A DNA stretch of 64,000 nucleotides from Clostridiaceae bacterium (GTDB lineage Bacteria > Bacillota > Clostridia > Clostridiales > Clostridiaceae), in assembly GCA_014380625.1 (NCBI GenBank), contig JACMJL010000269.1:1-64000 (forward strand), in the 5' to 3' direction. The notes below the pieces were generated by a model. It made no database searches and was not told where the DNA came from. It was given only the letters and a program-made list of their open reading frames with translations. The translations under genes were made by a program, and so were the position numbers. Positions 33,664 to 37,507 of the stretch are shown piece after piece. How positions within the stretch are numbered: position 1 is the stretch's first letter; the number at the start of each line of letters is the position of its first letter.

Positions 33664-33936
33664 AACTGTAAATCTTAAGTAGGGCATAGGGGTGCATTAT
33701 TGAGGGTATTGATCGCTGTTTAAAAAGTATGTTGGTGATATTGGAGATTACATAGCTCATTTAGTATATGTTTAACAACACGGTTCTTAAACACAGACTG
33801 ATTAACTCTGAAATATGAAATAGATAGGAGTTGAGGCATCTTTGAATTGGTATTTCTTTCAGATGCCCAAAAAATAGTGCCTAAAATATCCTTTTAAGAA
33901 TACTATTATATAAAGAACTAAATGGAAGGGGAAGTT
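33664..33936 (+). other. Non-coding gap with a hairpin, upstream of the Lon-like gene
   Basis: No convincing frame is present in these 273 bases. GGCATCT at 33835-33841 pairs with AGATGCC at 33861-33867 but is followed by A, not T, so it is not a terminator on this strand. GGGCAT at 33682-33687 could pair with the same ATGCCC instead, a possible switch. An AT-rich stretch around 33901-33915 may hold the -10 of the next gene, but no clear -35 was found. Confidence 0.35.
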
Positions 33937-36222
33937 ATGCTAAGAAAATTAAGCCCTGAGGAAGTTATATATAAGTTGAGTTTTGATAACATCGAGTATA
34001 GTGAAAATAAAGAATATAGATTTGATAATAATTCTACTTTAGATTATATAAACACAGCCTTTGAAATAGATACAAGTGGTTTTAATATGTATATTGTTGA
34101 CGAATTTTCTAAAGAAAAGTTAAATAGTATTATGAATTATATAAAAGAAATTCTTAGTAAAAAGAATAAACCAAAGGATATATGTTATGTAATAGATAGT
34201 GCAAATAAAAATCCAAGGCCGATTTTTGTTTCTCAGGGAAAAGGAAATCAATTGAAGAAAGCAGTTGAAGAACTTCAAGAAAAGTATCTTCTAAGTGATT
34301 ATGAATTCTATAATACCTGGATTAACGAAAAAAAAGAAAATTTAATTATAAATTTGCAAAACAAAAAAAATCATCTTGTAGAATCACTTATGGAAGTTGC
34401 GAAAGAAGAAGGGTTTATACTTAAAACAAACAAGCCCCGATTTGCATTTACTCCCATTAAAGATGGAAATTCAGTAACAGAAAAAGAATATGATGAATTG
34501 GATGAAGAGCAAAAGTGTGAATTAGTTAAGAAAGCAAGTAAACTAAAGCGCATTGCAAAGGTCGTAATAGAAGAAATAAGCCAACTTGACAAGGAAGAAA
34601 CTATAAAATTAAGGTTGATACTTCAGGAATATCTAAAAAAGGAGATGTATTTAACTAAATTAGAATTTAAGGAGAAGTTTCAAAAGGATGAAGAAGTCAT
34701 AGGGTTTTTAGAAACTATCTATGAAAAGATTGAAGAAGATTTAATAATGGATTATACAATGGACTTTGAAGATGATCAAGTAAGAATAAAAGAGGATATA
34801 TTTAAATATAAGGTTAAGGTTCTAGTGGATAATAGTAATAATGAGAGTCCCTTAGTAATATTTGAGGAAGATCCAAATTTAGTAAATTTAATCGGAAGTA
34901 TTGGATATTATAGCCATAATGGTGAATATACAACAGATGTAGAATCAATAACTGCAGGATCGATTTTTAGGGGTAATGAAGGGTGCGTTATTATAAGGGC
35001 AAGTAGTTTAATTTCAAATATTGGCATCTATCATTATTTAAAAAAGTATTTATTATCTGGATATGTTAGTCTAGAATGTGGTAAAAGTAATAATGAACTA
35101 CTTACTTTAAATACCATTAAACCTAGGCCTATCAAAATAGATGCTAAAATAATATTAATTGGTGATATTAAAATTTATAATTTATTATATTTAAATGATG
35201 AAGATTTTAAAAATATTTTTAAGATGAGATTAGAAATTAATTCATTTTTTGATATAAGTCCATCTTCTAAGCAAGCTCTACTTTACAAAGTAAAAGAAAT
35301 TTTAAATAAAAGAGGTCTAAATGCTATCACTTTAGAGGGCTTAATGAAAATAGCAAAACTATTTTCAAAAAAAGCAGGAGATAGAGATAGGTTATATATT
35401 GATGAAGAAGAACTGAACAAAATTTTAATACTAGCTAATAACAGGGCAAATAAATTAGTGAACAAAGTGATTGATTCTGAACAAATTATGGAATTGATAA
35501 ATAAAGAGGATCCACTTCAATTAGAAATTTTAAGAAATTATAGAGATAAAAAATTATTAATTGAAATAAAGTCTAGTGTAATAGGACAGGTGAATGGATT
35601 ATCTATAATTGATATTGGATATGCATGTTTTGGTAAACCTATGCGGATAACCTGCACCTGTGAGAAGGGAAGTGGACACATAGTTGACGCTCAAAAGGAA
35701 AGTGGTTTAAGTGGAAATATTCATAAAAAATCACTGAATATTTTAAAAGGTTATTTAAGTACCCTTTTTGGTGGCTATAATACATTACCAGTGGATTTTT
35801 ATTTAAGTTTTGAACAAGTTTATGGAAGAGTAGAAGGTGATAGTGCTTCCATAGCATGCATAACCAGTATACTATCAGCATTAGGAAAAATACCTGTAAA
35901 ACAAAACCTAGCAGTTACAGGTTCCATAAACCAATTTGGTGAGATTCAACCTATTGGAGGGGTAAATGAAAAGATAGAGGGGTTTTATAAGATCTGTAAG
36001 GCGTTAGAAGATGTAAAAGGCAAAGGTGTTATAATTCCACATGCAAATCTGAAGGGGCTAATACTCTGTGAAGAGGTAGAAAATGCGGTTTTAAAAGGGG
36101 ATTTTTATATTTATGTTGCTGATAACGTAAAAGATGCTATGGAATTATTAATGGGGAAAGAAAATATTATGGAAGACATTCTTAGAGAATTAAAAAAATA
36201 TAGGGTGCCAGAAATAAAATAA
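33937..36222 (+). CDS. Lon-family protease with degenerate ATPase domain
   Basis: The 761-residue protein follows the layout of the Lon-related AAA_32/LonB-like family: an N-terminal AAA half, a helical insertion (about 130-260), the rest of the AAA domain and a C-terminal Lon protease domain. The protease dyad is intact: Ser636 in VEGDSAS and Lys679 in GGVNEK, 43 residues apart as in Lon. The P-loop is not: where relatives have VGPTGTGKST, this reads VDEFSKEKLN (54-63). The Walker B strand reads GCVIIRASSL, with Arg where an acid is expected. It may therefore act without ATP hydrolysis, like LonC-type proteases. The ATG at 33937 follows GGAAGGGGAAG. Confidence 0.85.
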   Translation: MLRKLSPEEVIYKLSFDNIEYSENKEYRFDNNSTLDYINTAFEIDTSGFNMYIVDEFSKEKLNSIMNYIKEILSKKNKPKDICYVIDSANKNPRPIFVSQGKGNQLKKAVEELQEKYLLSDYEFYNTWINEKKENLIINLQNKKNHLVESLMEVAKEEGFILKTNKPRFAFTPIKDGNSVTEKEYDELDEEQKCELVKKASKLKRIAKVVIEEISQLDKEETIKLRLILQEYLKKEMYLTKLEFKEKFQKDEEVIGFLETIYEKIEEDLIMDYTMDFEDDQVRIKEDIFKYKVKVLVDNSNNESPLVIFEEDPNLVNLIGSIGYYSHNGEYTTDVESITAGSIFRGNEGCVIIRASSLISNIGIYHYLKKYLLSGYVSLECGKSNNELLTLNTIKPRPIKIDAKIILIGDIKIYNLLYLNDEDFKNIFKMRLEINSFFDISPSSKQALLYKVKEILNKRGLNAITLEGLMKIAKLFSKKAGDRDRLYIDEEELNKILILANNRANKLVNKVIDSEQIMELINKEDPLQLEILRNYRDKKLLIEIKSSVIGQVNGLSIIDIGYACFGKPMRITCTCEKGSGHIVDAQKESGLSGNIHKKSLNILKGYLSTLFGGYNTLPVDFYLSFEQVYGRVEGDSASIACITSILSALGKIPVKQNLAVTGSINQFGEIQPIGGVNEKIEGFYKICKALEDVKGKGVIIPHANLKGLILCEEVENAVLKGDFYIYVADNVKDAMELLMGKENIMEDILRELKKYRVPEIK

Positions 36223-36247
36223 ATAGGAGCGGTTATTGCTCCTATTT
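36221..36247 (+). terminator. Bidirectional terminator between the Lon-like gene and rsgI
   Basis: AAATAGGAGC at 36221-36230 pairs with GCTCCTATTT at 36238-36247 around a seven-base loop. It starts inside the stop codon of the Lon-like gene and overlaps the last bases of the convergent rsgI gene, so both genes share it. Confidence 0.75.
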
Positions 36248-36832
36248 ATATAAGTTAGATAATTCACCATTATCATTTATTTGTAAAGTGATTTTAAGTT
36301 CATCTGCCTTGTGCTTAAAAGCAGTTAAAGGAATTAAGGTATTGTTATGAGCAGTCATATAAAGGTGAATAGGGTTATCTTTTTTTGAATAGAAATTATC
36401 TAGATATTTTAATTTATGGGATTTCTCTAAAAGCATAGTTAAGGCTATATCTAAGGTTTTATTTTTAAGATTCAAATCTTTAGTTAAATCTGCACCCTTG
36501 ACACTTAATGGCATTACCTTTAGTACTTCATTGGATTTATTAACTTTAAATTGTATTGAAGAATTTATATCAACAACTACCGAGTAAGCAACAGTGTTTT
36601 TATAAATAGTATTAATCAATCCATATATAACCAATGAACTGATTACTGCCAAAAAAATCAATTTATAAAAGACTTTACCTTTTACATAGAGTTCACCGGT
36701 AAACATTTCTCCAATATGGGGAGGCTTGTTATTCTTTGTTCTTAAATTAAAGAATTCACAATCACAGGTCATTATATAAGTGAATTCTTTATTTGCCTCT
36801 ACAACAACACCAGTTTTAAGCAGTTGAATCAC
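36242..36832 (-). CDS. rsgI: Short RsgI-type anti-sigma-I factor
   Basis: RsgI proteins hold sigma-I at the membrane until a periplasmic signal triggers cleavage. This 196-residue member has the cytoplasmic RsgI N domain (residues 1-55), one membrane helix (about 57-76) and the juxtamembrane region (about 80-190). It has no C-terminal sensor or carbohydrate-binding domain, unlike many clostridial RsgIs. Where the family typically reads D-[VI]-N-P-S-I, this has D-I-N-S-S-I at 88-93, so the Asn-Pro bond reported as the autocleavage site is absent. The start overlaps sigI by 17 bases. Confidence 0.85.
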   Translation of the reverse strand: MIQLLKTGVVVEANKEFTYIMTCDCEFFNLRTKNNKPPHIGEMFTGELYVKGKVFYKLIFLAVISSLVIYGLINTIYKNTVAYSVVVDINSSIQFKVNKSNEVLKVMPLSVKGADLTKDLNLKNKTLDIALTMLLEKSHKLKYLDNFYSKKDNPIHLYMTAHNNTLIPLTAFKHKADELKITLQINDNGELSNLYK

Positions 36833-37493
36833 CTACTCTAATGTTTAAGTATGACTTAAAATATAGATAATTATCTTGAGAAAAAACTAATAACAACATA
36901 ATTACATACTTTTTATATTTTTTAATTATTTCATTTTCTAAATGGGCTAAGTTAGATAGAATATTGATATCAAAGTTTTTTTTCAATAGAATACTTTCAA
37001 TTAATGAATCATCCTTGCAAATATTTAGTGCTAAGTTCAAGAGTTTAGTTTTCAAAGACTTATCTTCAAATTTTATGTTTTGTAGATCTTTAAAGCTTAT
37101 ATTATATTTTTTCAATTCCTCAGTTAAAAGGGCTATCTCCATAGCTCGTGATTTATTTTCAAAATATATTTCAAAGTCACTTAAGGCTGATAAATACTCT
37201 AAATATATTTTGTTTTCTGATTCAAAAGTAAGTGATACTGATTCCTGAAGTTTAATATAATACTGAATCAGAGCCGATTGAATCAAAGTAGAGGCATACC
37301 CTAAAAAGTTAGTATGAATATCACTTTGTGACTCGCAGGCTCTATTAAAGGCTATTAAAGAAATATTAAGTTCTTGATCTTTTGACCAATCTAAGGTTTT
37401 ATTACAGAAGTATTCAGCAGTTCTATATATGAACGGTTTGTTTTCTTCGATAAATTTACTTCTATTTTCTTTGGTAAAAGTTCTAACTTCCAT
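36816..37493 (-). CDS. sigI: RNA polymerase sigma factor SigI
   Basis: The 225-residue protein resembles sigma-I, an alternative sigma factor for heat, wall stress or polysaccharide responses. Region-2-like helices are near residues 15-75 (I-A-F-N-R-A-C-E and the IQSALIQYYIKLQ helix). The C-terminal part looks like the sigma-I-specific domain, with LENEIIKKYKKYVIMLLLVFSQDN near the end. The ATG at 37493 follows GAGGTGATA. It lies 14 bases after ychF and overlaps rsgI, so the three probably form one transcript. No SigI autoregulatory promoter was seen in front of it. Confidence 0.85.
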   Translation of the reverse strand: MEVRTFTKENRSKFIEENKPFIYRTAEYFCNKTLDWSKDQELNISLIAFNRACESQSDIHTNFLGYASTLIQSALIQYYIKLQESVSLTFESENKIYLEYLSALSDFEIYFENKSRAMEIALLTEELKKYNISFKDLQNIKFEDKSLKTKLLNLALNICKDDSLIESILLKKNFDINILSNLAHLENEIIKKYKKYVIMLLLVFSQDNYLYFKSYLNIRVGDSTA

Positions 37494-37507
37494 AAGTATC
37501 ACCTCAT

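Follow-up and report, generated by a model that had tools for sequence, protein, structure and literature searches.

In the current analysis we have identified a large and conserved clade of LonC-type proteases in which the P-loop has been lost, one member of which is encoded in the window, the whole stretch of 64,000 nucleotides of contig JACMJL010000269.1 (Clostridiaceae bacterium) that was analysed. LonC proteins are known to be ATP-independent and the characterised member of the group binds nucleotide. The clade was seen in no family other than that of the window, presumably the Clostridiaceae.

Domain organisation of the window protein

The gene (33937..36222, forward strand, as are all the features of the protein given below) is an uninterrupted reading frame coding for a LonC-type protease of 761 residues. 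An alternative in-frame ATG at 33922 would add five residues, and the stretch AAGGGGAAG immediately 5' of 33937 looks like a ribosome site serving the start at 33937. Promoter signals sought upstream of the gene did not rise above chance and a search of the window for RNA families returned none.

Pfam assigns an AAA_32 domain (PF13654, 111.5 bits, E 4e-32) to residues 307-433 (34855..35235), for which a search of the genome gives the same coordinates, and a Lon protease domain, Lon_C (PF05362, 44 bits, E 2.5e-11), to residues 546-738 (35572..36150). The catalytic residues are Ser636 (35842..35844), in the motif EGDSAS, and Lys679 (35971..35973), in the motif NEKIEG. They are separated by 43 residues and both are present in all 67 clade members whose protease domain could be read, in agreement with the intact Ser-Lys dyad described in the first-pass annotation of this DNA. 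No membrane segment is detected in the window protein by hydropathy (best 19-residue value 1.5). The structure predicted with AlphaFold2 from the single sequence had a pLDDT of 34 and was discarded.

The replaced P-loop and the Walker B position

Residues 54-63 of the window protein (VDEFSKEKLN; 34096..34125) occupy the site of the P-loop, or Walker A motif. This had been proposed from the sequence by eye and is confirmed by an in-register profile-profile alignment with P-loop-bearing AAA_32 proteins, to which the clade is homologous from end to end (hhalign probability 100%, E 1e-144, P-loop stretch ungapped). The clade profile likewise sets LIDDFSKEKL opposite LVGPPSLGKH of MtaLonC. The motif GxxxxG[KR] is kept in none of the 69 clade members, which were drawn from most sampled genera of the window's family, as against 62 of 65 ordinary AAA_32 Lon-like proteins (annotated as 'ATP-binding protein' or unannotated) that come from other families and phyla and include a second kind of gene inside the window's family. 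The three exceptions comprise two true losses (L136 and L143) and one protein, L065, without the region in the frame taken. The window protein was also scanned over its whole length for GxxxxGK[ST], and no P-loop was found elsewhere in it.

In place of the P-loop the clade carries the motif (I/V)-D-x-F-S-x-x-K-L, read as YLIDDFSKxKLxxI in relatives, in which the conserved positions correspond to D55, S58 and K61 of the window protein. The first position of the loop is Asp in 65 of the 69 members and the fourth is Ser in 60. The seventh, in the register of the P-loop Lys, is Lys in 45 and Arg in five, and elsewhere Ser, Thr, Ala or Asn; where Lys is present it may still make some contact with phosphate. 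As all the loop glycines are replaced, nucleotide binding is probably gone. MtaLonC, the loop of which is partly degenerate, binds an ATP analogue with a Kd of 7.8 uM, one molecule to each subunit, and has no ATPase activity (PMC3391209); a nucleotide could in the same way be held unhydrolysed in a non-canonical pocket at the P-loop site of the clade, as a structural or regulatory ligand. The unchanged length of the loop and the position of K61 opposite the P-loop Lys are consistent with such a pocket, which we nevertheless consider unlikely in view of the replaced glycines, the Asp with which the loop nearly always begins, the variability of the Lys and the want of any other P-loop motif.

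The Walker B site corresponds to residues 349-357 (GCVIIRASS; 34981..35007; GCLIIRA in relatives), with Arg354 in place of the acid, and this position is basic in 66 of the 69 clade members. The Arg pointed out in the first-pass annotation is thus present at the site; as an argument for a destroyed ATPase it is weak, since the P-loop-bearing relatives mostly lack the acid too, Asp or Glu being found at this column in only eight of the 65 and Gln in most. The Walker B acid appears, from these alignments, to be absent from bacterial AAA_32 proteins as a group. As its absence is common to the protein family, the clade is marked only by the loss of the P-loop and by having turned basic at the Walker B position. 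A D/R pair of the D55/R354 type is found in 60 of the 69 members, and it is conceivable that Asp55 and Arg354, both conserved, interact across an empty nucleotide site. A salt bridge between them stays a guess, as the exceptions are without clear covariation.

Two further observations concern the ordinary AAA_32 proteins. Where the P-loop of bacterial AAA_32 Lon proteins is perfect (for example L044-L073), the Walker B residue is mostly Gln, which makes ATP hydrolysis by any of these proteins questionable. The P-loop is also gone in the AAA_32 Lon proteins L136 (genome G371; NFCDAEEQ) and L143 (genome G221; GDEDTNME), which belong to other families of the same phylum and lie outside the window's clade; loss of the P-loop therefore seems to be recurrent.

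Assignment to the LonC family

The LonC family has been defined by a C-terminal Lon domain with a Ser-Lys dyad and a LonB-like site, by the lack of canonical AAA+ motifs and of the LonA N-terminal domain or a transmembrane region, and by two insertions, the first following the catalytic Lys with the motif CX3GLX(G/E) and the second in helix alpha-5 with the pattern hydrophobic-x2-Ala-hydrophobic (PMC3391209). In the window protein the LonB-like site is formed by the EGDSAS and NEKIEG motifs, the Ser-Lys dyad of which is invariant in the clade. Canonical AAA+ motifs are missing, with GxxxxG[KR] absent and Arg at Walker B, and the Pfam matches are AAA_32 and Lon_C only, with neither a LonA N-terminal domain nor a transmembrane region. 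A LonC insertion of seven residues follows the catalytic Lys, the distance from this Lys to the next strand being 19 residues in the clade, in ordinary AAA_32 proteins and in MtaLonC as against 12 in an archaeal LonB. The insertion reads CKALEDVKG (CKALEDVK at 35995..36018), in which the length and the Cys are kept and the GL is replaced, so that CX3GLX(G/E) is only partly matched. The second insertion reads VENAV in the window protein, in accordance with the published pattern; its Ala is not universal in the clade.

Among proteins of solved structure the best match is MtaLonC/TTC1975 (PDB 4fwd), with an E-value of 6e-61 for the single sequence and of 2e-89 for the clade profile. The similarity lies mainly in the C-terminal two thirds, and the N-terminal part is matched by the profile only (E 6e-6). 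On these sequence features the window protein is a LonC protein by the published definition, on a separate, deep branch. The suggestion of the first-pass annotation that the protein is built on a different Lon subfamily is not supported, given this best solved relative, the length of the LonC insertion and the VENAV motif. An archaeal LonB assignment is not supported by the TIGR00764 model (120.8 bits, cut-off 516.6), the Walker motifs and the membrane segment being absent, and the LonA model TIGR00763 matches the protease part only (36.2 bits, cut-off 608).

Distribution, selection and orthology

Homologues at near full length, mostly 41-47% identical to the window protein, are encoded in roughly 170 of 195 genomes sampled in the window's family, a count taken from E-values, with a few of the 195 genomes having the ordinary type only and about 17 having neither. 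The residues of the replaced loop are met again in homologues from dozens of genera. In a tree computed from an alignment without both Walker regions, with only a few archaeal LonB and no LonA among its rows, the clade is monophyletic with a support of 100/100, and both it and MtaLonC are placed among the bacterial AAA_32 proteins. A profile search of 148 genomes of the class gave 977-1192 bits in the six genomes of the window's family and at most 605 bits in the rest, without overlap. Scans of contigs added one distant Lon among genome contigs and one distant homologue among viral contigs.

The altered region is under constraint. For close pairs within the clade dN/dS is 0.05-0.17 over the whole protein and 0.04-0.23 over the N-terminal part that holds the altered loop, and the replacement loop ranks as the 30th most conserved of the 293 eight-residue segments of the N-terminal region. 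Conservation along the protein is highest in the protease domain, with a mean column entropy of 1.18 bits as compared to 2.00 bits in the N-terminal 300 residues. This conservation weighs against the view that these proteins are mainly regulators or binding platforms for which proteolysis is minor or confined to a single substrate. MtaLonC is choosy among forms of casein (PMC3391209) and E. coli YcbZ makes two-hybrid contacts with RNase E (PMC13232886), both of which would suit such a role; we nevertheless hold it to be improbable.

The gene adjoins ychF in 23 of 29 relatives, and mraZ is next in two with a long enough flank. The synteny with ychF supports orthology; by itself it is silent on function, as ychF is oppositely oriented. 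With close relatives examined at the P-loop region, the orthologues share the altered loop and the copies with an intact P-loop form a separate branch. Together with the invariant dyad, the low dN/dS and the family-wide conservation of the replaced loop, this bears out the earlier statement that the gene is not decaying. The window genome is a draft assembly of 338 contigs, 81% complete, and the frame is broken in two relatives, which might raise the suspicion of a strain-specific mutation, decay or an assembly error; orthologues with the same residues across dozens of genera, the low dN/dS and the conserved synteny rule this out for practical purposes.

One P-loop-bearing and one P-loop-less gene occur side by side in each of five genomes (G004, G027, G033, G037 and G044) of the family, so that the two kinds are separate genes rather than variant forms of a single one. 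Their co-occurrence could also suggest that energy is supplied by a partner, either in rings shared with the AAA_32 paralogue that bears a P-loop or with another ATPase as the driver. This is very improbable, because most sampled genomes of the family hold the P-loop-less gene alone, as does the 81% complete assembly of the window genome, where a P-loop-bearing AAA_32 gene was sought and none was found, and because the P-loop-bearing relatives are themselves mostly without the Walker B acid.

The clade's Lon gene is split into two overlapping frames in two genera of the family, near 2196-2217 in L096 (genome G032) and near 2201-2259 in L098 (genome G039). Both breaks lie at a run of A where the AAA-like domain passes into the protease domain; one has a shift of -1 and the other a shift of +1. 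They may stem from sequencing error, decay or slippage.

Genomic neighbourhood

The window gene is flanked by the hypCDEAB genes and by an rsgI/sigI pair (36242-37502, reverse strand), which separates lon from ychF. The sigma factor of this pair has no match in Pfam and scores 116 bits with its best NCBIfam SigI model, for which the cut-off is 244; by its sequence it is classed here as a divergent SigI. The window genome encodes further Lon-domain genes, namely two frames of LonA size (777 and 813 residues) and frames of 639 and 573 residues, which match the spore LonC and LonB types in size.

Relationship to known Lon systems

The closest known system is MtaLonC of Meiothermus taiwanensis and TTC1975 of Thermus thermophilus (PDB 4fwd, 4fw9, 4fwg, 4fwv and 7euy), which shares with the clade the domain order, the B-type protease site, the length of the insertion after the catalytic Lys, the lack of a membrane segment and degenerate AAA motifs. 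MtaLonC differs in that most of the P-loop (GPPSLGKH) and the Walker B Asp (YLILDA) are kept and nucleotide is bound, whereas the clade has neither the loop glycines nor the acid. In the tree MtaLonC is placed beside a Thermomicrobium protein with the loop GRPGSGRES, far from the window's clade and not as its sister, which suggests that the loops degenerated separately. Forcing MtaLonC and the clade together costs 21.8 log units and is not rejected (AU p 0.097), MtaLonC being a long branch. The tree thus disfavours a common origin of the loss, and the P-loop of the clade was likely lost independently of MtaLonC.

The ordinary P-loop AAA_32 Lon-like proteins share the insertion length with the clade and mostly lack the Walker B acid as well; the P-loop is what sets them apart. 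E. coli YcbZ has the same type of protease domain (41.6% identity over 222 residues) and is likewise devoid of the P-loop, but it is a protein of 586 residues in which the whole P-loop region is missing and it clusters with gammaproteobacterial P-loop proteins; on this placement it is classed as a further separate case of P-loop loss. Archaeal LonB (for example PDB 3k1j) has a B-type protease site and a related AAA module (E 1e-24) in common with the clade and differs in having Walker A and Walker B (GVLFLDE at Walker B of Natrinema LonB) and a membrane anchor, without the LonC insertion.

In the course of these comparisons a 21.8 kb record of a Klebsiella pneumoniae plasmid (NZ_CP061967.1) was seen to encode an AAA_32 Lon, L113, with motifs close to those of L068 of the window's phylum and unlike the gammaproteobacterial ones. 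The record may be a contaminating contig that was given a plasmid label.

A wider reading of these relationships, to which we give somewhat less than an even chance, is that the clade would be a LonC branch without any nucleotide binding, in which the charged residues Asp55 and Arg/Lys354 hold the empty site. It would then stand at the end of a series leading from ATP-hydrolysing LonB through proteins with a P-loop and without the Walker B acid, its loss being independent of those in MtaLonC and YcbZ.

Proposed function

MtaLonC is a hexamer without ATP or Mg, and it cleaves unfolded and not folded substrates at rates that are unchanged by ATP (PMC3391209). By analogy, it is quite probable that the proteins of the clade are soluble LonC-type subunits which assemble as a hexameric chamber and degrade unfolded or damaged polypeptides with no ATP spent. 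The AAA-like ring would be retained as a passive gate and scaffold above the protease ring. At its original site the P-loop would have been remodelled as a charged segment that is conserved (D55, S58 and K61), with the basic R354 at Walker B, and nucleotide is probably not bound, as judged from the missing glycines only. A protease working without ATP hydrolysis was already envisaged in the first-pass annotation, and the anatomy of the protein (the invariant dyad, the low dN/dS and the conserved replaced loop) agrees with it; that reading was probably right as to mechanism and wrong as to subfamily. A search of the literature for the biochemistry of clade members or for clostridial LonC returned nothing specific.

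AsrA of Pseudomonas aeruginosa presumably belongs to the same AAA_32 Lon family as the window protein. It is a heat-shock-regulated protease (PMC9866376), and a role of the clade in the clearance of misfolded proteins would fit with it.

Significance of the P-loop-less clade

Labels such as 'ATP-dependent protease' and 'ATP-binding protein' carried by several relatives can mislead as to the working of these proteins. The P-loop-less clade provides natural material on the role of the AAA ring when nucleotide is not needed, and it lets one ask whether the binding of nucleotide by LonC serves a function or is a remnant. As some species encode both kinds of gene, the two can be compared within one cell.
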